This document shows positions 34,950 through 54,717 of a DNA stretch of 61,329 bases, in pieces; positions within the stretch are counted from its first letter, which is position 1; each line of letters begins with the position of its first letter. The stretch spans positions 1 through 61,329 of the forward strand of contig SCEJ01000015.1 in assembly GCA_004102785.1 (NCBI GenBank). The letters run 5' to 3'. The position numbers and the translations under genes were made by a program. The DNA comes from Muribaculaceae bacterium Isolate-013 (NCI) (GTDB lineage Bacteria; Bacteroidota; Bacteroidia; Bacteroidales; Muribaculaceae). The notes below the pieces were generated by a model. It saw only the letters and a program-made list of their open reading frames with translations, had not been told where the DNA came from and made no database searches.

Positions 34950-35171
34950 ATGTACTGGACACTTGAATTAGCATCAAAACTCGAGGACGCGCCCTGGCCC
35001 GCAACCCGCGAAGAACTCATAGACTACGCCCAGCGTTCGGGCGCTCCCCTGGAAGTTATCGAGAACCTCCAGGAAATCGAAGACGAAGGCGAGGCCTACG
35101 AATCCATCGAAGACATCTGGCCCGACTACCCCTCCAAAGAAGACTTCTTCTTCAACGAAGAGGAATATTGA
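34950..35171 (+). CDS. DUF2795 small acidic protein
   Basis: A 73-aa acidic protein with the pattern WTLELASKLEDAPWPATREELIDYAQRSGAPLEVIENLQE, matching the conserved Bacteroidetes DUF2795 proteins. The function is unknown. It is the last backbone gene before the island; a terminator follows at 35215. Confidence 0.85.
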   Translation: MYWTLELASKLEDAPWPATREELIDYAQRSGAPLEVIENLQEIEDEGEAYESIEDIWPDYPSKEDFFFNEEEY

Positions 35172-35386: not shown

Positions 35387-36748
35387 ATGGGCAGACAAAA
35401 GAGACCGTTCCCCTTGGGGCGTTTCAGACTTCGTTATCCGAAGAATTACGATAAGTGTAAGGCATATCCGATTGAAATCATCTATATCTTCGGCGGAAGG
35501 ACTTTGCGCCGCAACATGAATATTTCTGTCGCAGTTGCCGACTGGAATCCGAACGGGAATAACGGCAGGGGCGAGATTCGCGCATCCATGCCTGACAGCG
35601 CAAGATTCAACAACTTGTTGCTGGCGAAAGTCAATAAGGTTGATGCAGGGCTTAACGAGTATAACCAGAAATTCCCCGGTCAGGTCAACGAGGACGTCAT
35701 ATCCTCTTTTCTCGATGACAAACCGATAACGCGGAAAGACAAGGGAGAGGATTTCGTGGAGTTCGTCTTGAAACGTCTTGACTCAGAGTATAGCCGAAAC
35801 AAGATCGGTTATAGCCGATACAAGAATGGCCAGAGCGGAATGAATATCTTCCGGCAATTCCTGAAAGCCACCAATAGCGGGACATATAAGCCGGATGGCT
35901 TATATATAGGAGAGGTCTCAACAGAAATCATAGACAAGTATATCAAGTGGAGGCGTGATTTCAAGAATAACTCTGATGCCACGATCAACCATTCGCTGAC
36001 ACCGATTCTGAAAGGTTGCGAGGCAGCCTGCAAGATGGGACTGATTGATCAGGAGATCAACGCCCTGCTTCAGGATATGCGTATTCAGGAGAAGGCGTCG
36101 TTGGAAGCAGAGGGCGAGAAAGAGTTCGACGGCCACAATCTCAGCAAAGAACAGCTTGCCCAACTTGTGGAATTCTACAATAAAGATAAGGAGCCGCGCC
36201 GGAAAGAGTTTATCGAAATGTTTCTGTTTGCCTTTCATGCCTGTGGACTGCGGATTGTTGATGTCATGACCCTGCAGTGGAGTCATATCGACTTCGAGAA
36301 AAAGGAACTGAGCAAGGTGCTTATCAAGACAAGCAAGCGGCACAAAATACCTCTGACCGTTCCGGCTTTGCGAATCCTGTACAAATGGCAGTCTATGGGA
36401 CGCCGGAAGAAATATGTGTTCGATCTGGCGAAAGACGATCTGAGCCTCAATGATGCCGATTCGCTTTACCGGGCCCGCAACTCCGCCACAAAATGCGTGA
36501 ATCAATCACTGCATGTCGTCGGTGAGAAACTAGGATTTCCTTTCCCGTTATCTTTTCATACCGCGCGGCATACATTCGCGGTTCTTGCCATCAACGACGG
36601 CCTGACCATGACTGTTGTCAGCCGATTGCTCGGCCACAGTTCCACCGACATCACCGAAAAGGTCTATGCCCGACTTCTCCCGCAGACCCTGACAGCCGAG
36701 GTCGAGAAGCTGAACTATCAGTTTGTCCCCGACGAATTGTCTAACTGA
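35387..36748 (+). CDS. Tyrosine recombinase/integrase of a mobile element
   Basis: A 453-aa integrase of the Bacteroidetes mobile-element type. About 1-110 is an arm-type DNA-binding domain, 120-225 the SAM-like core-binding domain, and 240-440 the catalytic domain. The catalytic residues are visible: Arg289 in CGLRIVDVMTLQW, His391 and Arg394 in HTARHTFAVL, His in RLLGHSSTDITE, and nucleophile Tyr427 in KVYARLLP. All are intact, so the enzyme is probably active. It is the first gene of the island and likely made its insertion. No attachment repeats were found. Confidence 0.93.
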   Translation: MGRQKRPFPLGRFRLRYPKNYDKCKAYPIEIIYIFGGRTLRRNMNISVAVADWNPNGNNGRGEIRASMPDSARFNNLLLAKVNKVDAGLNEYNQKFPGQVNEDVISSFLDDKPITRKDKGEDFVEFVLKRLDSEYSRNKIGYSRYKNGQSGMNIFRQFLKATNSGTYKPDGLYIGEVSTEIIDKYIKWRRDFKNNSDATINHSLTPILKGCEAACKMGLIDQEINALLQDMRIQEKASLEAEGEKEFDGHNLSKEQLAQLVEFYNKDKEPRRKEFIEMFLFAFHACGLRIVDVMTLQWSHIDFEKKELSKVLIKTSKRHKIPLTVPALRILYKWQSMGRRKKYVFDLAKDDLSLNDADSLYRARNSATKCVNQSLHVVGEKLGFPFPLSFHTARHTFAVLAINDGLTMTVVSRLLGHSSTDITEKVYARLLPQTLTAEVEKLNYQFVPDELSN

Positions 36749-37702: not shown

Positions 37703-37734
37703 TTTGTTCGTACCATAGATATGAACTAAATTTG
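37703..37734 (+). promoter_or_regulatory. Promoter with an operator in its spacer
   Basis: TTTG at 37703-37706 and TAAATTTG at 37727-37734 are 20 bp apart. The spacer holds an inverted repeat GTTCGTA-N7-TATGAAC (37706-37726). This is where the XRE protein made from 37759 could bind to repress its own promoter, and perhaps the defence-like operon that follows. Confidence 0.6.
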
Positions 37735-37758
37735 CGTTCAAATTTAATAAATCAATCA

Positions 37759-37974
37759 ATGGAGACAAAAACAGAACGACAAAAGCTAAATAGAATAAAA
37801 GCAGTATTAGCCGAAACCGGCCACACCGGCAAATGGCTCGCCGAACAATTAGGCAAAGACCCTGTCACGGTCTCCAAGTGGTGCACTAATACCTCCCAGC
37901 CGGATTTGTATACACTATCTCAGATATCTCGTATAATTGGTGTGAATTCACGTGAATTACTTGCATCTGATTAA
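37759..37974 (+). CDS. XRE-family transcriptional regulator
   Basis: A 71-aa protein made almost entirely of one Cro/C1-type helix-turn-helix (GKWLAEQLGKDPVTVSKWCTNTSQPDLYTLSQISRIIGVNSRELL). The open frame extends nine codons upstream only by a TTG; ATG at 37759 gives METKTERQKL. It sits 83 bases before the 2368-aa ATPase gene, and no terminator lies between, so it may regulate that operon. An operator-like palindrome is in its promoter. Confidence 0.85.
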   Translation: METKTERQKLNRIKAVLAETGHTGKWLAEQLGKDPVTVSKWCTNTSQPDLYTLSQISRIIGVNSRELLASD

Positions 37975-38057: not shown

Positions 38058-41000
38058 ATGGCGAAATTCGTCAGTAAAGCTCAACTTAAATTAGCTGATA
38101 TCGAGGAAATTGATAAATTCTTCGAGGACAACATATTCCAAGGAGTGTTCTCTAAGGAAATTAAAAGCAAGCATCCGGAATGGTTCAAGGGAAGCGTATC
38201 TAACATTCGTTTAGATGGTGCTACTACAGATATTTTGGGTTCATATATAAATGTTCCAGCATCTTCAAACATAATTAAAGAAGGCCCATGTCAATTTAAA
38301 TGCCGATTAAAATCTCATTCGCCATTTCAAATTTCATTGATTCCAAATTCTCTTGAAAATATTGATAATTTTACTGAGACATCTCTGACTGATGTAGCAG
38401 AAAATGCTACTGAAACTGATCTTTTCCAGCTATGGGGAGTCGATAGCACTGAATGTATAGGGTTTTATCATCATGACGAAGAAAAAGAGATCTACGTCAT
38501 CGATGATATTAGAAAACCCAATTTTGATCACATCCCTTATTATCCGACTGATTCCGATAAAAGACCCATACGTTTAACGTATCATAAACATATATATGGG
38601 ATAAAGGAAAACGACTACTACCTTTTTAATTGGAAATTATCTCATAGGAATATCTTAAATCCGTATGATATATATATAGATTTTAATACTCCTCCAAGAA
38701 AAATTCAGCCTAAATGGTTTATCGATAAACTCTTCAAGGATCGGCATGACGATAAATCAAAGAACTTTAGTTCAGCGACTAACTTTCTTGATACGCTGAG
38801 TAAACAACTCAGCGCAAATGACTCTACATTTATTTATGAACTTTTACAGAATGCCAATGACTATCCCGTAGAAGGCAAGATGGTAGATGTAGTCTTTCAT
38901 ATCACAGATAATTACTTGCTTTTTCTTCATTCGGGAGATGCGTTTAATGTCCGCAATATTTCTGGAATTTGTGGAATTAATGAGAAGGAAAAGGTTGCTA
39001 ATAAGCGTACTATTGGCTATAAGGGTATTGGCTTTAAAACGGTGTTCTTAAACAATCACTATGTCTATATACAGACTGGAGATTATTCATTTAGATTCGA
39101 TGAAGGAGAAACACCTGAGAAAAAACCAGGAGGTAAGATTAGACGACTTGAAGCTCCTTTCCAAATATTGCCTATTTGGACTCCTGCTAATGAAGTAGCT
39201 CCTGAAGTCAGAAATGTATTTAGACAATCGGGGGAAGAGTTCAGAGTTCGTATTGCACTTCGCCCCGATAATAAGGACTTGTTACATGTTGGCCGCAACA
39301 ACTACGAGTCGCTATTTAAGTCCGTTTTCTCAGATTCAAATATCATTCTTTTTATCCCAAACATCAACTCTGTTAGGGTAATTATAAATGGAGTCGAGGA
39401 ACGTGTTTGTTTACGTAACAATAAAGAATGGGTTGTTTCTGACTATGAAGTTGAAATCCAAGAATCACTTCAACTTGCAATAAATAAAACTATCGACAAA
39501 GGCAATACTCGCATTCCGGAAAAATATAAGGATTTTGATTATACTAAAGTCTCATTTGCCTGCAAACGTATAGGTGCTACAATCCAACCTATTGAACACG
39601 CCACTGTCTATTGTTATCTTCCGACAAGTGCATCATGGGGATTTCATTTCCTATTGAATACAGATATGATACCTAAGGGGGATCGTAATGATATCGAGAA
39701 AGAGGTTGTACTTGCCGATGGGCAGGAAACAAACTTTAACGAAGAACTTGCCTCTATTGCTGGCGATAAGTTCTTTGATTGGATTCGGGATTTGTTAACA
39801 AGTAGAGAATATCAGTTAGCTTCGGTATTCTCATTAATACCCGATTTCAAAAAATGCAAAAAAGAACATGACTTTTACGATTCTTTCATTGCTAAGTTTG
39901 AATCGGCATTTGAATCCAGATTAGATTCAGATCATATTGTCCCTGTATCTAAGGGTATCTCTTTGATTAAGAGTGTCATCCTCGACACAACGGGGTTGTC
40001 TTCGAGTGACATTATGACAGATGATGAGTTTCGTAAGTTTACCGATATGGAAGACTTATATCTTCCACTCCATATCTTACGTAAGGATAAGAATTTTAAT
40101 TCATTTTTGAAAAGATATGCATCAGACTCTCAAGTATTCGACAAGGATGAGATTTACAATCTAATCAGTCATACATCCTTTCAAGAATGGCTAAAAAATC
40201 AAGAAAACAACAACCGTTTCCTTAATTTCTTGCTTGAAAAGAAATATCTTCAAGATTTCCTTGATGAGAAGATTTTCCTTGAGGCCGATGGAGGGCTTTA
40301 TCGTGCTTGTGAATTATACTACGACATTGATAAGTATCTTGCCGACCTCGATGCATTCACTGACTATCTTTACTATCTGAGTCCTCAAACCCGTGAATAC
40401 TTTGCTGAGAACTCGCAATGGGATGATGCTATCTCTGGGTCCTTTGCAAAATTTGACGAAGACAAGTTCGTAAATGATATACTTCTTGACGAGGACAATA
40501 TCGAGGCAACTAAGGAAAGATTGAAGAATTTCGACACCTCTGTTCATTTCTTCAACTTCCTTGCCATATATGTTGGCTATACAGACAACTACAAGCAACT
40601 GCCATTTTATGACGCAAATGGGGAGGTTGTTGAAAGCTTCGAAGGTAAGTTCGTTTTCTTCCACAGTATTGAGGGAGAAACACTTTGCGCATCTAAATGG
40701 CTTGAAAACGTTGTTATATCTTTTATCAGTGACTCTTATTCGGAAGTTGCAAAATCTTACTTTAAGAAATTTGACGTTCAGGATTACTCAGACGATATAA
40801 TCGTTAAGGATATTATATTATCAGAAGACTATACCGGAGATATATCTTCTGCAATTGACGAAGACATAGATTTGTCAGTTGATTTCATAAACTTTTGTTT
40901 CAAAAACAAAGATATTATACCTCCGTTAGGTCTTAAATCATATACCTTGAACGTATATGATTGTAATGGTGATTCCGACTGGTATATCAATGATAATGTT

Positions 41001-44000
41001 GTTTATTTCCCATCATCGCAATTTGACTACTATTCCCAGAAGGAATGGATAGATTCTTCTTGGCTAACTTGCCTGAATGTAGCCTATATTCCTGATAAAT
41101 TTGCGGAAGAAGAGTACAAGAAATTCTTTACCGACGCATTTGGCATAGAAGAACTAACCGATGTTTATTTCTATAAGAATGTTGTCAGGAAGAATCTTAC
41201 GAATCTTTTTAGCAAAATCAAAGGGCAAGAAGACAAGGACGGACATAAGAATATTGACTTCGTCAATTATCTTGATGAGAATTATAACCTTATTTTCGAA
41301 GAAGAAAATGATGCCAAATTATTCTCGGCTCTTGTAATCGCATCCGAAGGTGGATTTGATGTCAACCTTAATGATGCAAGTCTTTACATCTATAGTAAGG
41401 ATCTCGCTGATATTATAGGTTTGCCTTGGTTCCCCGATAAAGTCGTCACAATGACACATAATGGATATGGGTCGTCCAAAGCATTAGAGAAATTAGGTAT
41501 TGCTCGCTATACTTTTTCAGATTTCTACGATAAAGTATTGGTCGGCAACCTTGTCTCGATTAACAATAAAATTTCAACGATTGATAATAGCGTTGCATTC
41601 CACAATTTTATTATTGAACATAAGAAGAGCCTCTTAGACGAGCAACTCGCTAAAATGAAAAACGCCAAAGTATTCCTATATGGCGTTGCTACACCGGTTT
41701 CAAAAGCTACCGGGCACAATATATTAAGTCAAAAAGCCACTGAACTGTTTAAACTCGGTTTAGTGAATGGCTCATCTCTTGACTTGATTGCGGCTGAATA
41801 TAATCCAGATGCGAACACAGATTATTGGGAAACCCGCCTTGAAAACTCAAAATTCACTTTGAGCCATTTTGCAGCCTGGTTAAAATCCCATCGCAGCGAG
41901 TTTAATATCACATTAAAGGACAAAACCAAGAACATCGCTTTCTGGCGTTGGCTTAAGGAAAATCAAAATGAGACCTTGCTGAAAGAAGTTGTCGGAATGA
42001 CTATTCTTTTATCCGACGGAAGCTATGCTCAATCAGAAGCAATTTTCTTCTCTGATGCCTACTTGGGAGATTCGAAGATTGAATCCACCGTTCAACGCTT
42101 TAATAAGGCAGCTCATTTCTTAAGCCCATCTTATATGAAGGACGGAGAAGAAATCTCAGAATGGAAAAGTTTTTTCTCCAAGGTTGGTGTCAAATTTGAG
42201 ATTGTTGACATTCTTATAGAAACTATTGATAACTCTCTTTCGAGCGCAGACGACACTAATCTGATTAGACTCATAACGGATAATCGAGAAGCACTTGAGA
42301 ACCATTACGGAGATGATTTGATTGGTCATCTTCATGATTTGAGAGTAAAAGCTAAAGATGACAATTTTTACTCAATAAGTGATACCATCCTCATAAACTG
42401 CGAATCAGACGAACCGTTTGGGTATATAACTATCCCCAATCAAATTTCATTTTCTTATCCAAAGGAAAATCGACTTATTGACGATTTAATGCAGGATATT
42501 AAGGGTAGGAGAATACAAAATCTCACGGAATGGAAACAGCTTAAACTTGACCATTACCTCGCGTTGCAAGAAAAAGATGACGAAAGAATTCGCCCGATTC
42601 ACTTCCAGTTTGTTGAAGATTTATCCAAAATAAGAAATAGCAGTACAGACTCACTTGCAGCTCTACTATGTATCGATAAAATTAAGGTGCTTGATAGAAA
42701 AGGTGCCTTTCAGCAGGCAACGTCGCTGACTATAAGCAGTGTCTATAATCCGTTCTTCGACTTCGAAAAATGCGGAGTTGTAGAACTAGATTATGTGAGT
42801 GATGAATATAGCAAAAAATGCTCGGAGTACGTAGGTAGGTTCTTCCGAAGTCTGAATATGCATCGCGACTTTATTGAGTCTGATATTAAATACCTTGCCA
42901 ATCGTTCTTGCTCAATATATTTTTGGACGGAATATCTTGAAAAACAAACAGAGGCCGACACCAAAACTAAAATTGCGTCAATTCAGAAAATGATTACCGA
43001 ACATAAGTTCGATGATGTTTCATGTATTCCCACAAAGGATTATATGAAACGTCCTTCTGAATTGTACTATGGCAAAGAAGTCGACAAGTTTATAGAAAAA
43101 CTTGAAGATTGGGAGAACAAGACTCCTCTTGTAAATTTACCAGAAGTACGAGTTAGCGAGTCTGGATTATCGTTATTCGGTTCGTTGCCATTCAAGAAAT
43201 CCCTTGATTTCCTTGATGCTCTCTACGCACTTTTTAATGTACACAATAAAGAGAATAGACCTCAGATCTTGCGGTGGTTAATTGACGGATATGATCCTTC
43301 ATTCATGCCTAAAATAAATGAATATCGAGATGATGAGCTTGCACTTTGGAAAAATTCTCAAGGAGAGAAAGTTCAAATACAAGAACTATATGCACTTGAA
43401 TATGGAAACAGAAAACTTGAGCAATATTTCGGCTCAAATCCCAAAATCATAAATAAGGATTATCTTCCCGCAGGTGATGCTTTTAGAGAAGCTTGCGATA
43501 TCCTTCAGATAAGGACCATTGCCGACTCTGATTTCAGCATGGATCCCGTTAATGACACTCTTTGCCGTCGTTATAATTCTGACTTAAAGCTGTTCGCACT
43601 CATTATTGCCGGTATCATTAGTTCGGAAGATTGGAAAGACCTCTATAATGGCTTCTGCTCGAAGCTTGACACACTTATATTACACCGTTGTGATTCTATC
43701 CTCATAAAGTGTAATTTTGATTCTTCGATTAATCAAAGCTTCAAACAGTTCTATCATCAAGATCATGGAACAGATTTCTATTTTGTTGATGATATATATG
43801 AATCGTTGGTATTCCTTGATTTCGTCAATGAATATATTTCATATCTTGAGATTGAAGGCATAGAGAATGACTTGGTTAAGCTCATTATGCATAGCCGCGA
43901 GAATGCACTAAAAATAGTTCAAACATATCATTCCCTTATTTCCAATGAAGGATTTAAGGAAGCATTAATTACATTAGCTCCTCAATTGAGAGATAAACTG

Positions 44001-45164
44001 ATTTCAAAGAAAGAGGATGAAGATGATGATGTTTCATCAATCTCAAGACCTGAGTTTACCACCACAAGCACACCAACGCAAAGCGATAGTAATTATTCAG
44101 ATTCAGAAGGAGACAATGGCGTTTCATCAAGTGATGGTGAGGGTAATGATGAATATACTTCTTCTTCAGTTAACGTAATGCAAAATGGGAATATTGGAAC
44201 AGGCACATCAGAATCATCTGATAATCCAAATTCAAATGCTCCTATGACCGCTCCGACCGTCCCAGATGTATCAGGAGATATTCCAGAATGCGGAGAAGAA
44301 AAAGGAAATACCCCCAAATATACCAGCCCATCAGATCCTATCTGTACTCACTCTCAAAAAGAAGTTGATGTCCCTTCAAGTTCTGAAACGCCGGCAGATT
44401 ATGTTTACGATGGAGAAGATGATGAACTTATTGGCAGTGTCGACAATGACTCTGATTATGACAATCTTGATGACGCGCCTACTAAACCGCGCGGCTCTAA
44501 GACTACACGTCGACATCCGAAACCTTACACAAAAGCGGAAGTTAATCGTTTGCGAAGCAATCCATCTCCGCTTGCGCTTGAATCTCTACCACCAACAAAA
44601 GAAGAACTTGAGATTCTTGGTCAAATGAATATAACTCCTGAACAAATTGCTGATACAAATTATTTGGCTCAGCTGCGGTTATATCAGAATCTCATTGAAA
44701 GAGGCGATATGCCTGAAGAAACACGCGAAGACTTCGTGCGTAATGCGGCAGACGTAACAACCCATAAGCTAACAAACGGCAAATACATACACACATGTAG
44801 TGCTGCTCGTGGTGTTATGTATATCTCTCCCTCTGTATGGGATAAAATGCTTGATGACCGATGGGAGATATGTGTTTACTTGGATGGTAAAGGAAGTAAA
44901 TTCCATTATATCAAAGATCGAAATGAGTTCTTGCAACTTGTAGAGAAAGATGATGTCGTAATAAAAATTACGGGTAAGGAAAAGGTTGATGTGGTCAACC
45001 AACTATACTCTGACATACTTAATGGTGTCAAGGGCACAGCTTACACATTAATAAGAGTTGCCTCCACAACAAATATGGATGCCGTTTTCGCTCATTATGT
45101 TGGGAGCATGGCTGAGAGAAATGACGGCAATGAAATTCAAGATGAAAATTTAGATGACTATTGA
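38058..45164 (+). CDS. Giant GHKL (sacsin-like) ATPase, first gene of the RT operon
   Basis: A 2368-aa protein. A GHKL-type ATP-binding domain lies at about 240-400: the N-box ELLQNANDY at 261-269, an ATP-lid Asp/Gly segment SGDAF near 293, and GYKGIGFK at 320-327. This resembles the N-terminal domain of sacsin and NO VEIN-type proteins. About 420-1950 is a long, poorly recognised alpha/beta region. About 1975-2140 is a Ser/Asp/Glu-rich flexible linker, followed by a C-terminal globular domain (about 2190-2368) without a recognised family. It may act as a scaffold or sensor whose shape changes with ATP. The base composition is AT-rich compared with the backbone. The next gene overlaps it by 11 bases. 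Confidence 0.85.
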   Translation: MAKFVSKAQLKLADIEEIDKFFEDNIFQGVFSKEIKSKHPEWFKGSVSNIRLDGATTDILGSYINVPASSNIIKEGPCQFKCRLKSHSPFQISLIPNSLENIDNFTETSLTDVAENATETDLFQLWGVDSTECIGFYHHDEEKEIYVIDDIRKPNFDHIPYYPTDSDKRPIRLTYHKHIYGIKENDYYLFNWKLSHRNILNPYDIYIDFNTPPRKIQPKWFIDKLFKDRHDDKSKNFSSATNFLDTLSKQLSANDSTFIYELLQNANDYPVEGKMVDVVFHITDNYLLFLHSGDAFNVRNISGICGINEKEKVANKRTIGYKGIGFKTVFLNNHYVYIQTGDYSFRFDEGETPEKKPGGKIRRLEAPFQILPIWTPANEVAPEVRNVFRQSGEEFRVRIALRPDNKDLLHVGRNNYESLFKSVFSDSNIILFIPNINSVRVIINGVEERVCLRNNKEWVVSDYEVEIQESLQLAINKTIDKGNTRIPEKYKDFDYTKVSFACKRIGATIQPIEHATVYCYLPTSASWGFHFLLNTDMIPKGDRNDIEKEVVLADGQETNFNEELASIAGDKFFDWIRDLLTSREYQLASVFSLIPDFKKCKKEHDFYDSFIAKFESAFESRLDSDHIVPVSKGISLIKSVILDTTGLSSSDIMTDDEFRKFTDMEDLYLPLHILRKDKNFNSFLKRYASDSQVFDKDEIYNLISHTSFQEWLKNQENNNRFLNFLLEKKYLQDFLDEKIFLEADGGLYRACELYYDIDKYLADLDAFTDYLYYLSPQTREYFAENSQWDDAISGSFAKFDEDKFVNDILLDEDNIEATKERLKNFDTSVHFFNFLAIYVGYTDNYKQLPFYDANGEVVESFEGKFVFFHSIEGETLCASKWLENVVISFISDSYSEVAKSYFKKFDVQDYSDDIIVKDIILSEDYTGDISSAIDEDIDLSVDFINFCFKNKDIIPPLGLKSYTLNVYDCNGDSDWYINDNVVYFPSSQFDYYSQKEWIDSSWLTCLNVAYIPDKFAEEEYKKFFTDAFGIEELTDVYFYKNVVRKNLTNLFSKIKGQEDKDGHKNIDFVNYLDENYNLIFEEENDAKLFSALVIASEGGFDVNLNDASLYIYSKDLADIIGLPWFPDKVVTMTHNGYGSSKALEKLGIARYTFSDFYDKVLVGNLVSINNKISTIDNSVAFHNFIIEHKKSLLDEQLAKMKNAKVFLYGVATPVSKATGHNILSQKATELFKLGLVNGSSLDLIAAEYNPDANTDYWETRLENSKFTLSHFAAWLKSHRSEFNITLKDKTKNIAFWRWLKENQNETLLKEVVGMTILLSDGSYAQSEAIFFSDAYLGDSKIESTVQRFNKAAHFLSPSYMKDGEEISEWKSFFSKVGVKFEIVDILIETIDNSLSSADDTNLIRLITDNREALENHYGDDLIGHLHDLRVKAKDDNFYSISDTILINCESDEPFGYITIPNQISFSYPKENRLIDDLMQDIKGRRIQNLTEWKQLKLDHYLALQEKDDERIRPIHFQFVEDLSKIRNSSTDSLAALLCIDKIKVLDRKGAFQQATSLTISSVYNPFFDFEKCGVVELDYVSDEYSKKCSEYVGRFFRSLNMHRDFIESDIKYLANRSCSIYFWTEYLEKQTEADTKTKIASIQKMITEHKFDDVSCIPTKDYMKRPSELYYGKEVDKFIEKLEDWENKTPLVNLPEVRVSESGLSLFGSLPFKKSLDFLDALYALFNVHNKENRPQILRWLIDGYDPSFMPKINEYRDDELALWKNSQGEKVQIQELYALEYGNRKLEQYFGSNPKIINKDYLPAGDAFREACDILQIRTIADSDFSMDPVNDTLCRRYNSDLKLFALIIAGIISSEDWKDLYNGFCSKLDTLILHRCDSILIKCNFDSSINQSFKQFYHQDHGTDFYFVDDIYESLVFLDFVNEYISYLEIEGIENDLVKLIMHSRENALKIVQTYHSLISNEGFKEALITLAPQLRDKLISKKEDEDDDVSSISRPEFTTTSTPTQSDSNYSDSEGDNGVSSSDGEGNDEYTSSSVNVMQNGNIGTGTSESSDNPNSNAPMTAPTVPDVSGDIPECGEEKGNTPKYTSPSDPICTHSQKEVDVPSSSETPADYVYDGEDDELIGSVDNDSDYDNLDDAPTKPRGSKTTRRHPKPYTKAEVNRLRSNPSPLALESLPPTKEELEILGQMNITPEQIADTNYLAQLRLYQNLIERGDMPEETREDFVRNAADVTTHKLTNGKYIHTCSAARGVMYISPSVWDKMLDDRWEICVYLDGKGSKFHYIKDRNEFLQLVEKDDVVIKITGKEKVDVVNQLYSDILNGVKGTAYTLIRVASTTNMDAVFAHYVGSMAERNDGNEIQDENLDDY

Positions 45165-47487
45165 TAAAGATAAAAAGCTCGACAACTATAAACGCTTCTT
45201 TGCTGATCAAGTAAAGGAAGCAATAGCTGAACAGCAAAAAGTAAACAAAAGTGCTATGAGATCGCTATTCAAGACTGGCGACCTCGCACTTGCTTACATA
45301 GATTCTGTTCAGAACGAAACTGGATACGTCATTATAAAATGCCCTCGTGGTATGGCTCCTCGACTTAAAGTTCAAAAATGTATAACTGTCATCAAAAAAG
45401 GTGCTTTCCAACGATATGGTTCGCATCCCTTAGAATGGGATTGTAAATGGGAAACCTTTTGCGCAGACTCAGATCTCCATTCATCGGGTTCTGACTTCAC
45501 TCCAATGTTTTATATAAACAAGAGTGAGTCTACCTATGATTATATTGCTTGTACCGGATTAAGCTCAAATCTTTACGACCTTTTCAAAAAATCGTGTGAG
45601 AATGGTAAATCACTGTCTGTCATAATATATAACCCCTTCCCTCCAACAGAATATTATAAAAACCTATCTTCTTATATAGATGGTAATCGTGATAACACAG
45701 AGCTACTGATGGAGCCGACTATAAGTTATGAAGATTGGCAACCTGAAGAATTGGCTTTTGATGCAGCGAAACCCAATGCCATCTCTGATACAATTCTCGA
45801 TACGCTTAACAATAATAAAATTTGCATTCTACAAGGACCTCCAGGATCTGGAAAAAGTTATAATATCGCCTCCATCATTGCGCAATACCTCTCAAACGGC
45901 ATGAGGGTATGTGTGACAACAATGGCGAATAAAGGACTTATCGAGCTTATTAAACAATCTCCTCTAAAAGACTACTTATCAGCTGGGAAAATTGCCAAAA
46001 CAAATCTTTCGGCTGATGAACGAAAACAAGTCGTTGGATTAAAAGCAGCACCCTCCAATCTACAAATTGGGGAAGGTGAACTTTTATGCGCAACAAATTA
46101 TGTGCTTTCAAGCGCATTTAATCCTGAAAAAATAGTGCTAAATGGCATCCCTCAATACGATCTTATTGTAATTGAAGAGGCTTCGCAGGTTTTTCTCACA
46201 GCTATTGTCGCTTTCAAAAGTTTGGGTAAACACTGCTTAATTGTTGGAGACCCAATGCAGTTGCCGCCTATAGTAAAGTTGAACAATCCCCTTTATAATT
46301 CATGGAATGTTTATTCTCAGATTGAAGGTCTTAAAACAATCGCATTAGGCTCAAGCTTTAAATCATATAGGATTGTTACGACCTTTCGATTGACAAAGAA
46401 GTCAGCTGACCTAACGAAGTATTTTTACGACAATCGATTTGTGTCTGTAAAATCCGAGTATAAAAATTTCAGCAAGATAGATGATGCGTTATTCCCCGCC
46501 GAAGGTGGCGTGATTTATATTTGTACCGATGACCTTAGAAATGGCTTTTATTCGGATTCTTGCAATGCTATCCTACATAGGGTAGTTCGTAATCTTGATG
46601 AGCAATATCCAGATTATCATGTAGCTCTCATTTCTCCATATAGAGATACGGTTCGAGAAATGCAAAAGTATTTCTCTACACCAGACTACAATCTTGATAT
46701 AACTATAGAAACGATAGATAGGATACAGGGGGCAACTGTAGATTATGCGATATTGTATCTTCCTGGGAGAAACCCTGGATTTGCACTCGAGGATCGGCGA
46801 TTTAATGTGGCTACGAGTCGTTCGCTTAGCACGACTTTGATTATATCTGATATGCCGGTGGAGAATATTCATTCCGTCTCTCCAGTTGTGAAGCAATTTA
46901 TTGCCCATTGCGATAGGCTGAGTACAAATGGAACTTTTATAGAATCACCAACAAAAAATATTTCAGAAACACCTTTAACTATTACACCATCGGCTACGGA
47001 TAAGGCATATCAACTTCCTGGAGTCAAAGTTGTGGGACACGTCGACTTGTCGAAGTTCGAGCGTAAAAAGGTTGAAATTCAACCGGAGAAGAAGAACTAC
47101 TACATTATTGACACTAACGTGTTCATCAATTGTCCTGACATTCTGAGTAAAATTGATACCAAGTATCCTATCATCCTCTCAGCTAAGGTAATCGATGAAC
47201 TTGATAAATTTAAGATTCGTTCCGAACAAGAGAAGAAGAACGCAGAAACCGCATTGCGGCTTCTCAATCGTGAATCTACACGCGAAATTAAGTTTGAAAC
47301 AGCAGAAGCTTCGCTTCTGCCACCCGACTATGATAGGCGTTCTCCCGATAATCTCATTTTATCAGTAGCTCTGAAATATAAAAAAGATCATCCGATAATG
47401 CTTACCTCTGATAATGGACTGCAATTAAAATGCAAAGCTTTGGGGATTACAACAATCTCTTTAAAAGTTTTCCTCAAGAAACGCTAA
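45154..47487 (+). CDS. Upf1-like SF1 helicase fused to a PIN nuclease
   Basis: A 777-aa protein. The helicase core has Walker A GPPGSGKS at 228-235, Walker B VIEEASQ at 339-345, GDPMQLPP at 365-372, and later motifs DRIQGATVDYAI and FNVATSRS. This is the Upf1/DNA2-like SF1B group. A C-terminal PIN domain begins near residue 647 with YYIIDTNVF, then DELDKFK, RSPDNLILS and LTSDNGLQLK, giving the usual four acidic residues. It should unwind nucleic acid and cut RNA, or single-stranded nucleic acid. It overlaps the ATPase gene by 11 bases and is followed after 3 bases by the reverse transcriptase. Confidence 0.88.
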   Translation: MTIDKDKKLDNYKRFFADQVKEAIAEQQKVNKSAMRSLFKTGDLALAYIDSVQNETGYVIIKCPRGMAPRLKVQKCITVIKKGAFQRYGSHPLEWDCKWETFCADSDLHSSGSDFTPMFYINKSESTYDYIACTGLSSNLYDLFKKSCENGKSLSVIIYNPFPPTEYYKNLSSYIDGNRDNTELLMEPTISYEDWQPEELAFDAAKPNAISDTILDTLNNNKICILQGPPGSGKSYNIASIIAQYLSNGMRVCVTTMANKGLIELIKQSPLKDYLSAGKIAKTNLSADERKQVVGLKAAPSNLQIGEGELLCATNYVLSSAFNPEKIVLNGIPQYDLIVIEEASQVFLTAIVAFKSLGKHCLIVGDPMQLPPIVKLNNPLYNSWNVYSQIEGLKTIALGSSFKSYRIVTTFRLTKKSADLTKYFYDNRFVSVKSEYKNFSKIDDALFPAEGGVIYICTDDLRNGFYSDSCNAILHRVVRNLDEQYPDYHVALISPYRDTVREMQKYFSTPDYNLDITIETIDRIQGATVDYAILYLPGRNPGFALEDRRFNVATSRSLSTTLIISDMPVENIHSVSPVVKQFIAHCDRLSTNGTFIESPTKNISETPLTITPSATDKAYQLPGVKVVGHVDLSKFERKKVEIQPEKKNYYIIDTNVFINCPDILSKIDTKYPIILSAKVIDELDKFKIRSEQEKKNAETALRLLNRESTREIKFETAEASLLPPDYDRRSPDNLILSVALKYKKDHPIMLTSDNGLQLKCKALGITTISLKVFLKKR

Positions 47488-47490
47488 GAT

Positions 47491-49206
47491 ATGGATTATA
47501 GAAAACAGGAAAATACGAAGAAGAAATCAGTTCGCATCATTGAGCTTTCAGACAAGGAGGCTCTTTATGCTCTGATGAACAATGATTTCTATTGCACAAC
47601 CGAGCTGCCGGAATATTTTGATTTTTCGGGAGTGTTGAAATATGCGGTTGATAGCATAGGCAACAAATCTCTGGATGAATGTGTCAATGACGATTGTCTG
47701 CCGGAATCCGTGCATGGTGTCAATCTTGATGTCATTACAAATAAGGATGGACGATATGCTGTCCGACCATTGACGCTTGCTAATCCTTTCCTATACTATA
47801 TGCTCGCCCGTGATATCTGTAACGAAAATGCCTGGACGAGGATTAAGGAGTGTTTCAAGCTATACTCGCACGAGCATATCACAGCTTGTGCCATTCCTAT
47901 GGTTAAAGTTGATGACAAGCCGGAGCCATTTAAAGGAGCCACAACAATACTCAATTGGTGGAATTCGATGGAGCAGCGTTCGATTGAGTTGTCATTGAAG
48001 TATGGTTATATGTTCATGACCGACATTACTAATTGCTTTGGTCAAATCAATCCCGAATCCATAGGTTGGGCTTTGGCAAGAAAAGACACGCCGCATGAAA
48101 CTATCGAAAATTCTGAGCTTGCATCTGTCATACAGCGTTATCTCAGAGCTATGCAAGAGGGAAAGAATATTGGCATCCCGCAGGGCAGCTCTCTTTTCTC
48201 ATTGATTGCAGAGATTATTCTCGGATATACCGATATGCTTCTTGCTCAGGATATAGCCAATGAACAAGAGTCCGGTAAATTGCCGAAAGACTTGGAATAC
48301 GAAATCCTCAGGTATGTAGATGACTACCGTATATTCTGCAACGACCGTGATGCGTTGGACAGGATATCATATATGCTTCAGCATATACTTGAACGATTCA
48401 ATTTCCGCATGAACCCGTCAAAAACTCGCACTTCAAGTGAATTGATTACGGATTCAATCAAGCCGGACAAGGCGTTCTATATCTTCAACACTCCGATAGA
48501 AAGCAAGCAAATATATAAAGATGAAGAGGGCCATGAACGCAAGGAGCGCGGATATGATTTTGACGGATTCCAAAAACATCTTCTGTTTATATATGAGTTT
48601 TCTAAACGCTTTCCTAATTCGGGTCAACTCATTTCACAACTTGAAGCGTTTAGCAAGCGAGTCGAAGAGCAGTTGTCTACAAAGACTATAGTTTACGAAG
48701 AAAAAACTACTGATATAGAGACCGGAGTCGTTACGAAGGAGAAAAAGTCAAAGGAACGGAAAGGACATCTTTGGGAAAATATCTCAACGATGGTCGCGAT
48801 TTCTGTTGAGATTGCAGCAAATAATCTTCGCGCCGCTAATAATGCTCTTAAGGTGGCAAGTCAGTTATTGGCTGATATGCGGAAGGATGTTGCACAGCAG
48901 AAGAAAGATATTATAGACCTTATTTACAGGAAACTCATCCGCATACCAAATTCCGCTTTCCTACAGGTGTGGGTTCAGAACATCACTCACACTACAGATG
49001 ACTGGTCGGCAGGCGACATCTACGATATGCCGCTATGTAAAGTAGTAGCCACGCAGCCCGTGACGCTATGGAATAACAGTTGGCTTAATCCGGACATAGC
49101 GATTGCCTTCCCCCAAGACAGCATTGTAGACAGAGAAGTCTTGGCTAAGACAGGACAAGTCATCACATTCAAGGCCAAACGTCAATATGATGAGATGGAA
49201 TACTAA
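47491..49206 (+). CDS. Reverse transcriptase, probably defence-associated (UG/Abi-like)
   Basis: A 571-aa protein. The RT fingers and palm span about 85-330. The early segment is AVRPLTLANPFLYYML, motif A is FMTDITNCFGQI with catalytic Asp178, motif B is GIPQGSSLFSLIAEIILGYTD, and motif C is RYVDDYRIF with Asp277 and Asp278. The catalytic triad is intact. A C-terminal helical domain of about 220 residues follows, longer than in retron enzymes. No group II intron maturase X/HNH domain and no CRISPR Cas1 partner is present. The palm motifs and the long helical tail resemble the unknown-group (UG) RTs behind DRT defence systems; the exact class is not determined. Confidence 0.88.
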   Translation: MDYRKQENTKKKSVRIIELSDKEALYALMNNDFYCTTELPEYFDFSGVLKYAVDSIGNKSLDECVNDDCLPESVHGVNLDVITNKDGRYAVRPLTLANPFLYYMLARDICNENAWTRIKECFKLYSHEHITACAIPMVKVDDKPEPFKGATTILNWWNSMEQRSIELSLKYGYMFMTDITNCFGQINPESIGWALARKDTPHETIENSELASVIQRYLRAMQEGKNIGIPQGSSLFSLIAEIILGYTDMLLAQDIANEQESGKLPKDLEYEILRYVDDYRIFCNDRDALDRISYMLQHILERFNFRMNPSKTRTSSELITDSIKPDKAFYIFNTPIESKQIYKDEEGHERKERGYDFDGFQKHLLFIYEFSKRFPNSGQLISQLEAFSKRVEEQLSTKTIVYEEKTTDIETGVVTKEKKSKERKGHLWENISTMVAISVEIAANNLRAANNALKVASQLLADMRKDVAQQKKDIIDLIYRKLIRIPNSAFLQVWVQNITHTTDDWSAGDIYDMPLCKVVATQPVTLWNNSWLNPDIAIAFPQDSIVDREVLAKTGQVITFKAKRQYDEMEY

Positions 49207-49218
49207 GGATAAATCGAA

Positions 49219-50310
49219 ATGGCAAAGTCAACAGATAAAATACAAATAACTTTGGATTCCGGGGTCAAAGCAGAGGCTCAGGCTCCCATTATTGTGTCGG
49301 CAAGCAGGAGCACAGACATTCCGGCTTTCTATGCAGATTGGTTCTTTGAACGGTTGAAACGAGGATACTCGGCTTGGACTAATCCGTTTAATGGTGTCAC
49401 CTCGTATGTAGCTTATAGTAATACAAGATTTATTGTGTTTTGGTCGAAGAACCCAAAGCCGCTTCTGGAACATCTTGATTATCTGGCTGAGGCAAATATA
49501 GGATGCTATATACAATACACCCTGAACGATTACGAAGCGGAGAGTCTTGAGAAGGGTGTGCCGCCATTGAGTCAGCGTATTGAAACTTTCAAGATGTTGG
49601 TTGATAAATTAGGTAAAGGACGTGTTGTCTGGAGATTTGATCCGATGATTCTGACTGACAAAATCAGCATTGATGATTTGCTTGGTAAAGTCAGAAACAT
49701 AGGAGACCAGCTTAAGGATTATACAGAGAAACTTGTATTCAGTTTTGCTGACATTGCGTCATATCGCAAGGTCAAGTCCAACCTTGAAAAGAACGGTATC
49801 AACTACATTGAGTGGAATGAGGCATCAATGAATGAATTTGCCTCAAATCTGTCAGAAATGAACAGGGAGCGCGGATGGAACTTTAAGCTTGCCACTTGCG
49901 GTGAGAAAATTGATATTGAGCAATATGGCATCAAGCACAACCGTTGCGTGGATGATGATCTTATGGTTCGATTTGCATACCGCGATAAGAAGTTAATGGA
50001 ATTTCTGGATGTGGATGTAAAGAATGTTCAGCCATCTGTTCCATCTATATTTGAAGAATTCGAAGACAGTCCACAGATTCCGGAAGGAGCCATAATGGCA
50101 GCATCCGATACCTATGCCATAAAGCAAAAGAATAACAAGGATAAGGGTCAGCGACAGTTCTGCGGATGCATTGTCAGCAAAGACATAGGGCAGTACAATA
50201 CTTGCCCGCATCTTTGCGAATACTGCTATGCAAATACAAGCAAAGATGTAGCGGTTACCAATTGGAAGCGTCATAAATCAAATCCAAACGGAGATAAAAT
50301 TATTGGATAA
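49219..50310 (+). CDS. DUF1848 protein with a Cys-rich cluster
   Basis: A 363-aa protein matching DUF1848. The N-terminus IIVSASRSTDIPAFYADWF and later WRFDPMIL fit the TIM-barrel-like fold related to radical-SAM proteins. The C-terminal cluster has Cys315, Cys317, Cys329, Cys333 and Cys336 in the order CGC...TCPHLCEYCYAN. That could hold an iron-sulfur cluster. The biochemical role is unknown. It lies 12 bases after the RT gene and 2 before the next, so it is part of the operon. Confidence 0.85.
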   Translation: MAKSTDKIQITLDSGVKAEAQAPIIVSASRSTDIPAFYADWFFERLKRGYSAWTNPFNGVTSYVAYSNTRFIVFWSKNPKPLLEHLDYLAEANIGCYIQYTLNDYEAESLEKGVPPLSQRIETFKMLVDKLGKGRVVWRFDPMILTDKISIDDLLGKVRNIGDQLKDYTEKLVFSFADIASYRKVKSNLEKNGINYIEWNEASMNEFASNLSEMNRERGWNFKLATCGEKIDIEQYGIKHNRCVDDDLMVRFAYRDKKLMEFLDVDVKNVQPSVPSIFEEFEDSPQIPEGAIMAASDTYAIKQKNNKDKGQRQFCGCIVSKDIGQYNTCPHLCEYCYANTSKDVAVTNWKRHKSNPNGDKIIG

Positions 50311-50312
50311 CT

Positions 50313-52964
50313 ATGAATGTAGATAGACTGGTTGAGACATGTTATAATGCAATCCCATTCCATTGGAAGCAACGGCCTTGGGAATATCTAAATCATGGCA
50401 AGGCTGTTCTTGACACAGAGGTACAACTAAATGCATATATGGCAGCATACGGAGAAATGCATGTTGTAAAATGTAGGATGGCTATGCAAAATTTTCCGTT
50501 TGAAGAATTGATGCTTACAAGAAATGATATTGGAGAAATTACCCATCTTAGAAATTTTGAATTATATGATTGGGGATGTGGGCAAGGAATAGGCAGTCTT
50601 GTTTTACTACAGATGCTTCATGAACGTGATATGCTCCATGGGCTTCGCTGTGTAACACTAATCGAACCATCCGAAACTGCAATATCAAGAGCGGAACGTT
50701 GGGTAAGACAGGCTGTACATGCGTCTACTGACATTAGGATAATAAATCGTTATATACCGAAAAATGAGGACAAAATATGGGATGACATTGAATGTCACGC
50801 TCCGATAGCCATACATATATGTTCTAACATACTGGATATTGCAGAGGTTGGATTAAAATGGCTTGCATATACAACATCACACATATCGGGTAACAATATT
50901 TATGTTTGTGTGGGGCCACAATATGGACGAGGTATTTCACGAATCTCGGATTTTCATAACTATCTTGGCAATCCGGATTGCTTTGCGAATTTCTCAAAGT
51001 ATCCATGTGCGTATACCTCACGAACAAGACATCCATTTGGAATTGAAGCCAAATGTTTTATTCTTAAATCATCCATAGGATTTAATGCTGATTATATCGA
51101 ACAATCAGAGCAGTACCATATTGATGAATACCGTAATGGAGATGAGTGCCTAACTGGTGTCTTGCCAGATTCTGTAATATCAGCATATCATTGTCTATGT
51201 GATGCCGCTAATGCTAACTCGTTTGAACTATATCTACGTCCATCAATAGGTATAGAAAGGCCAGATTTTGTTTTGGCAAATATGAATCGTGGAATTGTGA
51301 TTGTAAATATTTGTGAAGATATCTCTAAATTGGGGGAAGAATATGAACGCGTAGATGCTATTAAACAGGCATTAATCGATACATATATTAAAAGCCTTAA
51401 AATAGGAACTATTTTAACACCAGCGACATATAATGTGATTAAAGTTGGTCTGTATTTCCCTTCTGCAACACCTGAAAATGTTGAGGCACAGTGTATGCTT
51501 TATTATCAAGGCTTATTACAACGATGGAGAGAGAATAATATACAGGAGAAAGAGTACAAAGAGCCTAAAGATCTTACTCAGTTCATAGTTAAGCTTTATA
51601 AAGAAAACAGTAGTAGTGAAATCAAAGCAATCAATTGCTGTGGATTTAGATATGATTTCTTCAATGAGATTAAAAATGTCATCATCGGCAACTGGCATAC
51701 TTATTCACAAGGTGACAGAACATTGTGCTTAACCAAGCGGCAAAATGAATTGGTGGAGAATGATACGCCTCGACTGAGAATTAAGGGTGTCGCTGGATGT
51801 GGTAAAACTCAAATTGTAGCGCATAAGGCCGTAAAGGAACATATAAGAACTAGCACGAAAGTATTGATTGTAACATATAATATTTCACTCATATGTTATA
51901 TTAGAATGCGTATCAATCAAGTGCCAGCAGATTTCTGTACTGATGCGTTTGAGATAATCAATTATCATCAGTTTTTTATATCCAAAGCAAGAAGATACCA
52001 TGGAAATCATATTCCTTTTGGGGCATCAGATAACGCGAATTTCTTTGATTCCTATCTTGATAAGATAAAGGCAAACAATGATCAATATGATACTATAATT
52101 GTTGATGAAGCCCAGGATTACACTACGGCATGGTTTGATTGTCTGAGAAAATATTTTCTTACAGAACGCGGCAAAATTATTTTATGCGGAGACGGAGAAC
52201 AGAATATATACGGGCGCGAAGTAGAATCTGAAAGTCGTATGCCGATGGTTCGTGGATTTGGTTCTAAAAACCCATGGAGAAATGTTAGCCAGCGTGTTTC
52301 AATGCGAATGTTGAACCCCAAGATAGCCATTCTGTCATCTCAATTCGCTCATAAATTCAATATTTCAACAGAAGCTTTAAGAATACAAGATGATTTAAAC
52401 CTCTTTGATTATAGAATGGGGTATTGGAATGTAACCATTACAGCGACACCTAATTCTATTGCAAGTAACATCGAATGGATTTTGAGGCAGTATAATCTTA
52501 ATACTAAAGATGTTGTCGTGTTAGGTCAGTCAATTAACTTACTGAGGGAAGTGGACTATAATATGCGCACTATTTTTTCTCGTTGCACTATGACCACTTT
52601 TGAATCAAGAGAGGAGTATGAGCAGGTTAAAGCCAAGACTAATAGCACTAGCAAATTAGAACTTGATTTAAAAGCAATTCGCCGAGTTGCTAAAGTCCAT
52701 TTTACCACCGATACTGATAAGCTAAAGTTGGCGACAATCCAAAGTTTCAAAGGGTGGGAATCCAAAAGCATTATTCTTATAATACAACCTGAAAAGGACA
52801 CGTCAAGTAATTTGAATGAAGAAGAGTTTGTTATTCAAACAAGACAAAATATACCAGCCCATATTTACACGGCAATTACCCGTGCGCGAGAAAATCTTTT
52901 CATCTTAAACGTTGGGAATCCGAAATTTCATGATTTCTTCAAAAATAAAATACAAAATGATTGA
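50313..52964 (+). CDS. Methyltransferase-like domain fused to a UvrD-like helicase
   Basis: An 883-aa fusion. The N-terminal part (about 1-290) has a SAM-binding-like motif DWGCGQGIG at 86-94, an acidic residue in CVTLIEPSETAISRAERW and a HICSNILDIAEV segment, as in class I methyltransferases. The C-terminal part is an SF1A helicase/ATPase: Walker A GVAGCGKT at 492-499, Walker B VDEAQD at 597-602, GDGEQNIYGRE, and TIQSFKGWESKSIIL with AITRARENLFIL at the end. The middle (about 300-480) is unrecognised. It may both methylate and move along nucleic acid. Confidence 0.82.
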   Translation: MNVDRLVETCYNAIPFHWKQRPWEYLNHGKAVLDTEVQLNAYMAAYGEMHVVKCRMAMQNFPFEELMLTRNDIGEITHLRNFELYDWGCGQGIGSLVLLQMLHERDMLHGLRCVTLIEPSETAISRAERWVRQAVHASTDIRIINRYIPKNEDKIWDDIECHAPIAIHICSNILDIAEVGLKWLAYTTSHISGNNIYVCVGPQYGRGISRISDFHNYLGNPDCFANFSKYPCAYTSRTRHPFGIEAKCFILKSSIGFNADYIEQSEQYHIDEYRNGDECLTGVLPDSVISAYHCLCDAANANSFELYLRPSIGIERPDFVLANMNRGIVIVNICEDISKLGEEYERVDAIKQALIDTYIKSLKIGTILTPATYNVIKVGLYFPSATPENVEAQCMLYYQGLLQRWRENNIQEKEYKEPKDLTQFIVKLYKENSSSEIKAINCCGFRYDFFNEIKNVIIGNWHTYSQGDRTLCLTKRQNELVENDTPRLRIKGVAGCGKTQIVAHKAVKEHIRTSTKVLIVTYNISLICYIRMRINQVPADFCTDAFEIINYHQFFISKARRYHGNHIPFGASDNANFFDSYLDKIKANNDQYDTIIVDEAQDYTTAWFDCLRKYFLTERGKIILCGDGEQNIYGREVESESRMPMVRGFGSKNPWRNVSQRVSMRMLNPKIAILSSQFAHKFNISTEALRIQDDLNLFDYRMGYWNVTITATPNSIASNIEWILRQYNLNTKDVVVLGQSINLLREVDYNMRTIFSRCTMTTFESREEYEQVKAKTNSTSKLELDLKAIRRVAKVHFTTDTDKLKLATIQSFKGWESKSIILIIQPEKDTSSNLNEEEFVIQTRQNIPAHIYTAITRARENLFILNVGNPKFHDFFKNKIQND

Positions 52965-53262
52965 ATTTAATATAGACGAGAAGCGAATAATAATAGCTAT
53001 TCTCATAACCATCATGGAAGCTGATGGCATAATTGACCCTCACGAAATAGACTATCTTGATAGCATAATATTGTCATTTGGTATGTCAGAATTAGAACTC
53101 GATACCATTGACGAACTCGACTTCAATCACATTCTCTCCGTGTTTAAAAATTTTGATGCGTCTAAAAAAGACAAAGCATCATTGCTTTTTCAAGAAATGG
53201 CTAAATGCGACGGATATGCTGATCCACGAGAACTGGAGATTATAAGTAAATTATGCAGTTGA
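52957..53262 (+). CDS. TerB-like small protein
   Basis: A 101-aa protein with the helical, acidic pattern of TerB/YebE-type proteins: ILITIMEADGIIDPHEIDYLDSII in the N-terminal half and a second EMAKCDGYADPRELEIISKL in the C-terminal half. The two Asp/Glu-rich repeats could bind metal. An in-frame ATG at 52912 is possible, but 52957 overlaps the upstream gene by only 8 bases and gives a normal size. TerB proteins often appear near defence and stress genes. Confidence 0.75.
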   Translation: MIEFNIDEKRIIIAILITIMEADGIIDPHEIDYLDSIILSFGMSELELDTIDELDFNHILSVFKNFDASKKDKASLLFQEMAKCDGYADPRELEIISKLCS

Positions 53263-54273: not shown

Positions 54274-54717
54274 TGATCCTTTCGTGATTTCAAATCGTGA
54301 TGACGTGGTGCATTCATTGTCTTTCATCGCCTGATTCACTTGTCTATTGAAGTTAAAAATATTGTAAAATTCTGATTTAGTGCTATCTGAAATTTCTTCA
54401 ACGAGGAGGAATACTGAGCAATATATTTTACATAAACACCTAATAATCAATGGCTAAGAAATAAATAATTTTCTTGGCCATTGCTGTTTTATCCCATTTT
54501 ACCCCATAGTTTTCTTTGCTAAAGACAAAGCTCCAAAGCGATGACTTGGCTAAATTGCGTTTTCTTGGCCAACTTCAGCGATATTCTTGGCTAAATTCAA
54601 ACGCTCCTCAGAGGTTTGTGAGTATCGCAAGAAACAAAGTGCGCAACCAAAATTGATTGATTTTAAATACAGCAACCTAATATAGTTGCACATATTAGAA
54701 TTTATTCTTAACTTTGC
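54274..54717 (+). other. Non-coding gap with short repeats and a promoter
   Basis: No gene is seen. Short variants of CTTGGCTAAATT recur (for example near 54547 and 54587). At the right end GTTG (54685-54688) and TAACTTTG (54709-54716), 20 bp apart, form a promoter that points to satD but is separated from it by the inserted foldback element. Confidence 0.5.

Follow-up and report, generated by a model that had tools for sequence, protein, structure and literature searches.

An Abi-P2 family reverse transcriptase beside exchangeable partner modules on an island of a Muribaculaceae bacterium

Some reverse transcriptases (RTs) with a role in immunity make random DNA that stays attached to the enzyme itself. 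DRT1 is described as a template-free, protein-primed RT that controls a nitrilase effector; the random DNA linked to it pre-activates that effector and at the same time holds it in check, and activity requires a phage single-stranded DNA (ssDNA) helicase (PMC13275509). For Abi-P2, another report gives a structure, a trimer and template-independent synthesis, with the Y61F variant inactive (PMC9508834). The locus presented here lies in contig SCEJ01000015.1 of Muribaculaceae bacterium Isolate-013 (NCI), positions 1 to 61,329 of which were analysed (the window, 61,329 nucleotides). Its six genes encode a giant GHKL ATPase, a Upf1-like helicase with a PIN domain (HelPIN), an RT, a DUF1848 protein, a methyltransferase-helicase fusion (MTHel) and a TerB-like protein. 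On balance, we read it as an anti-phage locus of composite make-up, carried by an integrated island and centred on the RT, which would serve as a hub for exchangeable partners; the defence is probably of the abortive-infection kind. The part worth noting is the hub pattern, an RT with exchangeable modules, each of which is also found beside such RTs elsewhere.

The likeness to Abi-P2 extends over most of the length of the RT, C-terminal domain included, and takes in the catalytic aspartates and a priming tyrosine of the fingers loop (Y61 in Abi-P2, Y42 in the window). The difference lies in the setting: Abi-P2 is a single phage-borne gene that acts as a single gene, whereas the RT here stands within a six-gene operon. 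With DRT1 the locus would share a model in which a random DNA adduct is a safety catch, a possible phage sensor and an effector gate; in DRT1 a single protein contains both the RT and its effector, a nitrilase domain, in contrast to the GHKL and HelPIN pair proposed here. Mokosh, with its helicases MkoA and MkoC, is alike in the superfamily 1 (SF1) Upf1-type helicase core. An earlier note on this DNA had suggested a comparison with Mokosh and other catalogues, and the MkoA and MkoC matches proved confined to that core region (MkoA against HelPIN, 1.1e-23); the partners in the window are PIN and GHKL instead, and no Mokosh model was among the PADLOC matches listed for the other operon proteins. 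Among its DRT models PADLOC has one for an RT-associated DUF1848 protein (RTasDUF1848), which the window protein matches at 3.5e-37, so an association of DUF1848 with RTs was on record before; to that protein the window adds the methyltransferase-NERD-UvrD fusion, TerB, GHKL and HelPIN. Tiamat, presumably the system behind the PADLOC gene name TmtA, is a single-gene system. Its model matches residues 219-925 of the GHKL protein (1.7e-96; profile 4-653 of 1302, the N-terminal half), but the window protein has 2368 amino acids against 1302 in the model, and it comes with a Upf1-PIN partner and an RT. For the set as a whole, no description was found in the accessible texts of the open-licence literature, outside which many relevant papers lie, nor in the accessible parts of PMC8934634 and PMC3710099; the claim that the set is undescribed stands to that extent, except that PADLOC already models DUF1848 in association with an RT.

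The six genes, followed by two genes upstream of them, are:
38058..45164, + strand: giant GHKL/sacsin-type ATPase with a Tiamat-like N-terminal half, module A (PADLOC TmtA; NCBIfam P_loop_sacsin; ATP-binding motifs intact)
45154..47487, + strand: Upf1-like SF1 helicase with a C-terminal PIN nuclease domain (HelPIN), module A (Pfam AAA_11/AAA_12 and PIN_4)
47491..49206, + strand: Abi-P2 family RT, the putative hub (RVT_1; PADLOC AbiP2; PDB 7r08; D178, YVDD, Y42)
49219..50310, + strand: DUF1848 protein, predicted circularly permuted radical S-adenosylmethionine (SAM) enzyme, module B (Pfam DUF1848, 2.9e-89; Cys motif; predicted model)
50313..52964, + strand: fusion of methyltransferase, degenerate NERD-like region and UvrD-type helicase (MTHel), module B (Pfam, PADLOC, alignment, predicted model)
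52957..53262, + strand: TerB-like small protein, module B (Pfam TerB, 2.3e-6; same position in loci L032 and L033)
37732..37974, + strand: helix-turn-helix (HTH) protein, Cro-like, probable operon regulator (91% identity over 80 amino acids to the HTH protein of locus L001)
35387..36748, + strand: tyrosine integrase, island context, outside the system (sequence; GC step)

In number, order and strand the six open reading frames are as the earlier note had them, with gaps of -11, 3, 12, 2 and -8 bases; the last is the overlap of the TerB gene, starting at an ATG at 52957, with the MTHel gene. The six genes may well share one transcript. Intact catalytic motifs, likewise claimed, were found as follows: ELLQNAND and GYKGIGFK in GHKL, GPPGSGKS (Walker A) and EEASQ in the helicase and D..E..D in PIN, all seen in alignments, as well as those of the RT. 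The exception is the NERD-like region. NERD nucleases are expected to carry the catalytic motif E-x-K, and at that position N-x-C stands in 4/4 aligned sequences (the window and three homologues), by which the region is judged degenerate.

On its sequence, the RT belongs to the known Abi-P2 family and is not a new RT type. The PADLOC AbiP2 model matched it at 2.5e-152 (residues 11-568, profile 2-485 of 489), the next-ranked model, Drt6, at 3.7e-30, and a chain of PDB entry 7r08 at 5.4e-51 (best stretch 15-334). On these strong AbiP2 and 7r08 matches a new type was rejected. The earlier description of an RT-containing, probably anti-phage operon is supported, without novelty of the RT itself. 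We take 7r08 to be Abi-P2 because its six chains and its tyrosines at 46 and 61 fit PMC9508834. Among 18 aligned RTs, D178, D277 and D278 (YVDD) are invariant and Y42 is nearly so, the sole exception being a row that lacks that stretch; Y42 (LPEY) aligns with position 61 of the 7r08 chain (LPAY). By analogy with its family, which is known for such a reaction, the window RT would carry out template-free, protein-primed ssDNA synthesis on Y42. The phage records with a relative of the RT number 6, four from E. coli (P2-EC30 and P2-EC58 among them) and two from Listeria; plasmid records with one number 121, and 93 of these come from Enterococcus. A non-coding RNA between the RT and its neighbours, of the kind that retrons, DRT2 and DRT9 have next to their RT, was considered and rejected, the gaps of 3 and 12 bases being too small and without an Rfam match; within 34800-58300 no Rfam match was credible, which leaves room for a novel non-coding RNA elsewhere.

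A survey of what sits beside related RTs bears on the hub. GHKL and Upf1-PIN genes are co-directional with an adjacent RT in 6/46 mapped RT loci (the window, L001, L002, L006, L008 and L009), upstream of it in three and downstream in three, and these carriers occupy three distinct regions of the RT tree (the window clade, L006 and L008/L009), with at least 5 parsimony changes. DUF1848 with a methyltransferase-helicase stands beside an RT in 2/46, the window (UvrD type) and L083 (DEAD type). Within a clade of 26 RTs, 15-16 share a co-directional run (gaps up to ~300 bases; 469 for the L009 HelPIN) with a helicase or GHKL/NO-VEIN ATPase gene, and RTs of this clade carry module A more often than the rarity of HelPIN (8/324 genomes) would suggest, in a comparison made without a formal background rate. 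The loci came from genome contigs (16), the order sample (5/324 genomes), the family sample (16/372) and IMG/VR (15), which partly cover the same places; the genome-contig and IMG/VR loci were found by peptide-pattern scans and are not an unbiased survey. The count of 46 leaves aside duplicates (L017, L074, L075, L078, L086) and L072, below the score, and still contains near-identical viral contigs (L061/L062, L063/L064, L068/L069/L070). The RT tree, built quickly from 38 rows, leaves 15 forks open, and its counts of changes do not distinguish gain from loss; it is also without L015 (broken RT), L062, L064, L069, L070, L071, L082 and L087. Neighbours were scanned with Pfam where they looked relevant, those of 582 amino acids in L007 and 1668 amino acids in L029 being left out, and adjacency is a lower bound because several loci end near the RT (e.g. 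L005, L011, L082, L084, L087). The partners seen in the 26-RT clade are:
GHKL-Upf1-PIN: 6 loci
Upf1 helicase and giant protein with a DarT domain: L058, L073
TOTE helicases with DUF7017: L005, L014
DEAD and UvrD: L004
UvrD: L076
SNF2: L018
GHKL-NO-VEIN: L012, and L013 by a sub-threshold NO-VEIN match only
DUF1848 and methyltransferase-DEAD helicase: L083

The arrangement in L058 (9989-21657) and L073 (1-11390) is a second recurrent RT operon, in which an Abi-P2-type RT is accompanied by S1 or NusG-like genes, a Upf1-type helicase and the giant protein, whose DarT domain is that of an ssDNA thymidine ADP-ribosyltransferase.

Comparison of individual loci points to alleles being swapped at a fixed gene order. 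Between the window and L001, in which an HTH gene likewise lies directly 5' of GHKL-HelPIN-RT, identity is 91% for HTH, 23-41% for GHKL, 41% for the helicase, 87% for PIN and 86% for the RT, and DNA similarity resumes at ~47011, close to where the helicase gives way to PIN. L002 shares 97% of its DNA with the window in the HelPIN region but 78% in the RT, and homology stops at the RT gene end; between L008 and L009 the RTs are 84% identical, the helicases 30% and the GHKL N-termini 23%. As read from these sequences, GHKL-helicase alleles have been exchanged, with breakpoints at helicase|PIN and HelPIN|RT, and the order has been kept. Over six loci, which are few (L022 is RT-free, the other five are RT-linked), the GHKL C-terminus diverges in step with the helicase at r 0.83, a value reached by 6/720 label permutations, against 0.61 for the GHKL middle (117/720), 0.38 for its N-terminus (152/720) and 0.12 for PIN (223/720). 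Because the two divergences track each other, the GHKL C-terminus may contact the helicase. The GHKL-helicase part would be a fast-changing sensing part and PIN-RT a stable part, with the exception of L002, where PIN went with the helicase and not with the RT. The breakpoints would predict which parts sense and which act.

Neither protein of module A is confined to the RT setting. The GHKL protein gave no match to PDB sequences; HelPIN (PIN_4 at 1.1e-21) has SMUBP-2 and Sen1 as PDB relatives. The two genes overlap by 11 bases in the window, HelPIN is also next to GHKL in L001, L002, L006 (its GHKL gene broken into two frames) and L008, and in L009 it follows GHKL after the 469 bases already mentioned. 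HelPIN matches were found in 8/324 genomes of the order, including the partial G128 (PIN only) and G265 (helicase part only), and a search of IMG/VR and plasmids gave none. A PIN domain is present in 6/6 RT-linked helicases and absent from three loci in which no RT turned up (L024, L026 and L029); it is also present in the RT-free L022 and L031, and partly in L028.

Module B differs in its distribution. The DUF1848 protein carries a CxxxCxxC motif (C329, C333, C336), C-terminal in position and invariant in 16-row and 19-row alignments; its predicted model has a predicted local distance difference test score (pLDDT) of 90, and the best 21 VIA-align rows are radical-SAM enzymes. It is predicted to be a circularly permuted radical-SAM enzyme. 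A comparison with PDB sequences yielded no credible match (best E 0.56), and the open-licence literature no paper on DUF1848 and none on permuted radical SAM. DUF1848, a family of unknown function, gains a testable prediction: a radical-SAM enzyme paired with a methyltransferase and carrying the cluster motif at the other end of the chain. The methyltransferase part of MTHel has a weak family match and weak profile matches in PDB (best 1im8 YecO, 0.0011); the closest VIA-align entries to its model are mitoribosome assembly factors, and its fold is possibly like Rsm22/METTL17. What points to the NERD-like region is PADLOC NERD+UvrD together with NERD proteins of plasmids, and in the predicted model that part is too poor in quality to read. 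In the order sample, relatives of DUF1848 occur in 54/324 genomes and those of MTHel in 17/324; three of the 17 match the helicase part only, and 12 of the 14 that cover the methyltransferase part have DUF1848 within ~5 kb on the same contig (different contigs in the other two), so that DUF1848 and the methyltransferase form a module of their own, usually RT-free. The methyltransferase is joined to NERD-UvrD in the window, L032, L033 and L088, to a DEAD helicase in L083, and to Sel1 or leucine-rich repeats in L044 and L049; in L042 its companions are a UvrD-like helicase encoded on its own and a gene for an ADP-ribosyltransferase/glycohydrolase. TerB follows the fusion 3' in the window, L032 and L033, and no TerB match was found after the methyltransferase-helicase of L083; in L033 a YhcG-type nuclease gene separates DUF1848 from the fusion. 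The operon of L042 (203-5506) runs DUF1848, helicase, ADP-ribosyltransferase/glycohydrolase, methyltransferase, and L043, L047 and L054 have a similar layout (domains were scanned in L042). In L077 (13702-15426), DUF1848 is accompanied by broken-looking methyltransferase pieces, and an RT lies ~7 kb off on the opposite strand of the same contig. In L090 and L094-L098 (IMG/VR), DUF1848 stands among small phage-like genes without a methyltransferase, and phages may therefore use it too.

In the mechanism that we propose, the RT would oligomerise and add random-sequence ssDNA, template-free, to its own Y42, like Abi-P2 and AbiK. Module A would be its main partner: phage enzymes would disturb the RT-DNA adduct, the giant ATPase and the helicase, the latter translocating along nucleic acid, would sense infection or the disturbed adduct, and the PIN domain, gated by GHKL-helicase, would cut RNA, so that cell arrest halts phage growth. 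Module B would be another arm, mobile on its own but on the same transcript, that works as an effector or modifier and modifies or demodifies nucleic acid or ribosomes.

Several observations weigh against a single RT-centred locus. The full six-gene set is present in 1/46 RT loci, the window alone. A conserved six-gene system is rejected on this count, and the earlier idea of one system is not supported, since the observation that the note itself named as refuting it, genes seldom together in other places, holds for the full set; co-occurrence holds for parts of the set, GHKL with Upf1-PIN in 5 further loci and DUF1848 with a methyltransferase-helicase in 1 further. Module A is RT-free in L022, L024 and L026, so the pair can exist without an RT, and in none of the 7 other HelPIN-positive genomes of the order sample was the RT found; module B is RT-free in L032, L033, L042 and others. 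For 10/26 clade RTs no such neighbour was seen or the contig is cut, and in P2-like coliphages the RT stands alone. Hotspot stacking could unite unrelated systems, which is the main argument for the alternatives: a pduO-like gene (53% and 50% identity) borders the DUF1848 modules of L042 and L046 as well as the window island, as does a 73-amino-acid host gene (window 34950-35171; 93% and 92% identity) for the modules of L042 and L046, and in L029 the distance between a pduO-like gene and the Upf1-type helicase is ~1.2 kb. Lastly, according to PMC13275509, abortive infection polymerases, unlike DRT1, need only protein-primed synthesis for immunity, a sufficiency that favours a stand-alone RT and speaks against transferring the DRT1 model to this locus.

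The alternative that survives best, to which we give a little under an even chance, is a core three-gene system, GHKL-HelPIN-RT, with DUF1848-MTHel-TerB as an unrelated neighbour at the site that holds Schlafen-type genes in L001 and L002; it overlaps with the composite reading, and the probabilities behind our wording do not sum to one. Both of those loci have GHKL-HelPIN-RT followed by SLFN_AlbA_2 genes in place of module B, window-L002 homology stops at the RT gene end, and module B occurs mostly RT-free. Yet L083 has an independent RT-DUF1848-methyltransferase-helicase operon in the same order (RT about half identical, gaps of 68 and 1 bases), the RT-associated DUF1848 model matches, and the window gaps at this point are 12 and 2 bases. 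It is doubtful, by comparison, that an Abi-P2 RT, a Tiamat-like GHKL with Upf1-PIN and DUF1848-methyltransferase are independent systems stacked at a hotspot and merely co-transcribed. Each module has been found alone, the full set once, Abi-P2 works as a single gene, and the pduO-side hotspot shared with L042 and L046 favours stacking as what brought the modules together; however, the co-directional joining of GHKL-Upf1-PIN with an RT is repeated in three tree parts and two orders, the distribution of PIN leans, RT-free carriers notwithstanding, towards RT-linked helicases, and recombination swaps alleles yet retains the order HTH-GHKL-HelPIN-RT. That the locus lies outside defence and is an RNA/ribosome or DNA repair operon borne by the island (radical SAM, Rsm22-like methyltransferase, helicases, RT) is improbable: the VIA-align closeness of the methyltransferase fold to mitoribosome assembly factors, and the finding of DUF1848 in 8 phage records and, as a lone gene, on contigs that look phage-like, speak for it, but the integrase island, the matches to defence models (Abi-P2, Tiamat-like, RhuM, Fic) and the patchy distribution, with the RT in 5/324 genomes of the order, speak against it.

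The composite reading can be carried further, more tentatively, to a modular immune platform in which the Abi-P2-type RTs of Bacteroidales are the hub where partners dock; the window would be a two-armed case in which one RT serves two effectors. Protein-linked random ssDNA would there be the common trigger or safety catch for exchangeable helicase/ATPase effectors (GHKL-Upf1-PIN, Upf1-DarT, TOTE helicases, GHKL-NO-VEIN and DUF1848-methyltransferase-helicase), and if the Abi-P2 RT does repeatedly recruit differing helicase-effectors, the DNA adduct is likely what the partners read. A precedent for module sharing is given by a nuclease-protease pair repeatedly acquired by several defence systems, DRT included (PMC12799240).

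The island itself agrees with the earlier description of an AT-rich island with integrase, regulators, RhuM and Fic, on both low GC and gene matches. In a host genome of 3.3 Mb on 385 contigs, GC is ~0.36-0.42 inside the operon against 0.53-0.64 outside the island, and the tyrosine integrase and HTH genes lie upstream in the same low-GC island; a direct-repeat search yielded no convincing attachment-site pair. The RhuM gene (53278-54273; PADLOC PDC-S05, 4.2e-162) starts 15 bases 3' of TerB, and the transcript may therefore exceed six genes; of the terminator-like stems on the + strand, the longest is found 3' of RhuM, at 54448-54483. Promoter-like matches show no excess (51 against a mean of 57.4 in shuffled sequence), terminator-like matches, several of them intragenic, do (22 against 11.0), and nothing firm is drawn from either. 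Genes resembling RhuM occur elsewhere too, close to the RT in L059 and close to DUF1848 in L099. Within the island, SatD-like and DUF3307 genes overlap by 16 bases (54905-56277), and a SoFic-like Fic protein (7.6e-45) is encoded at 56677-57978.

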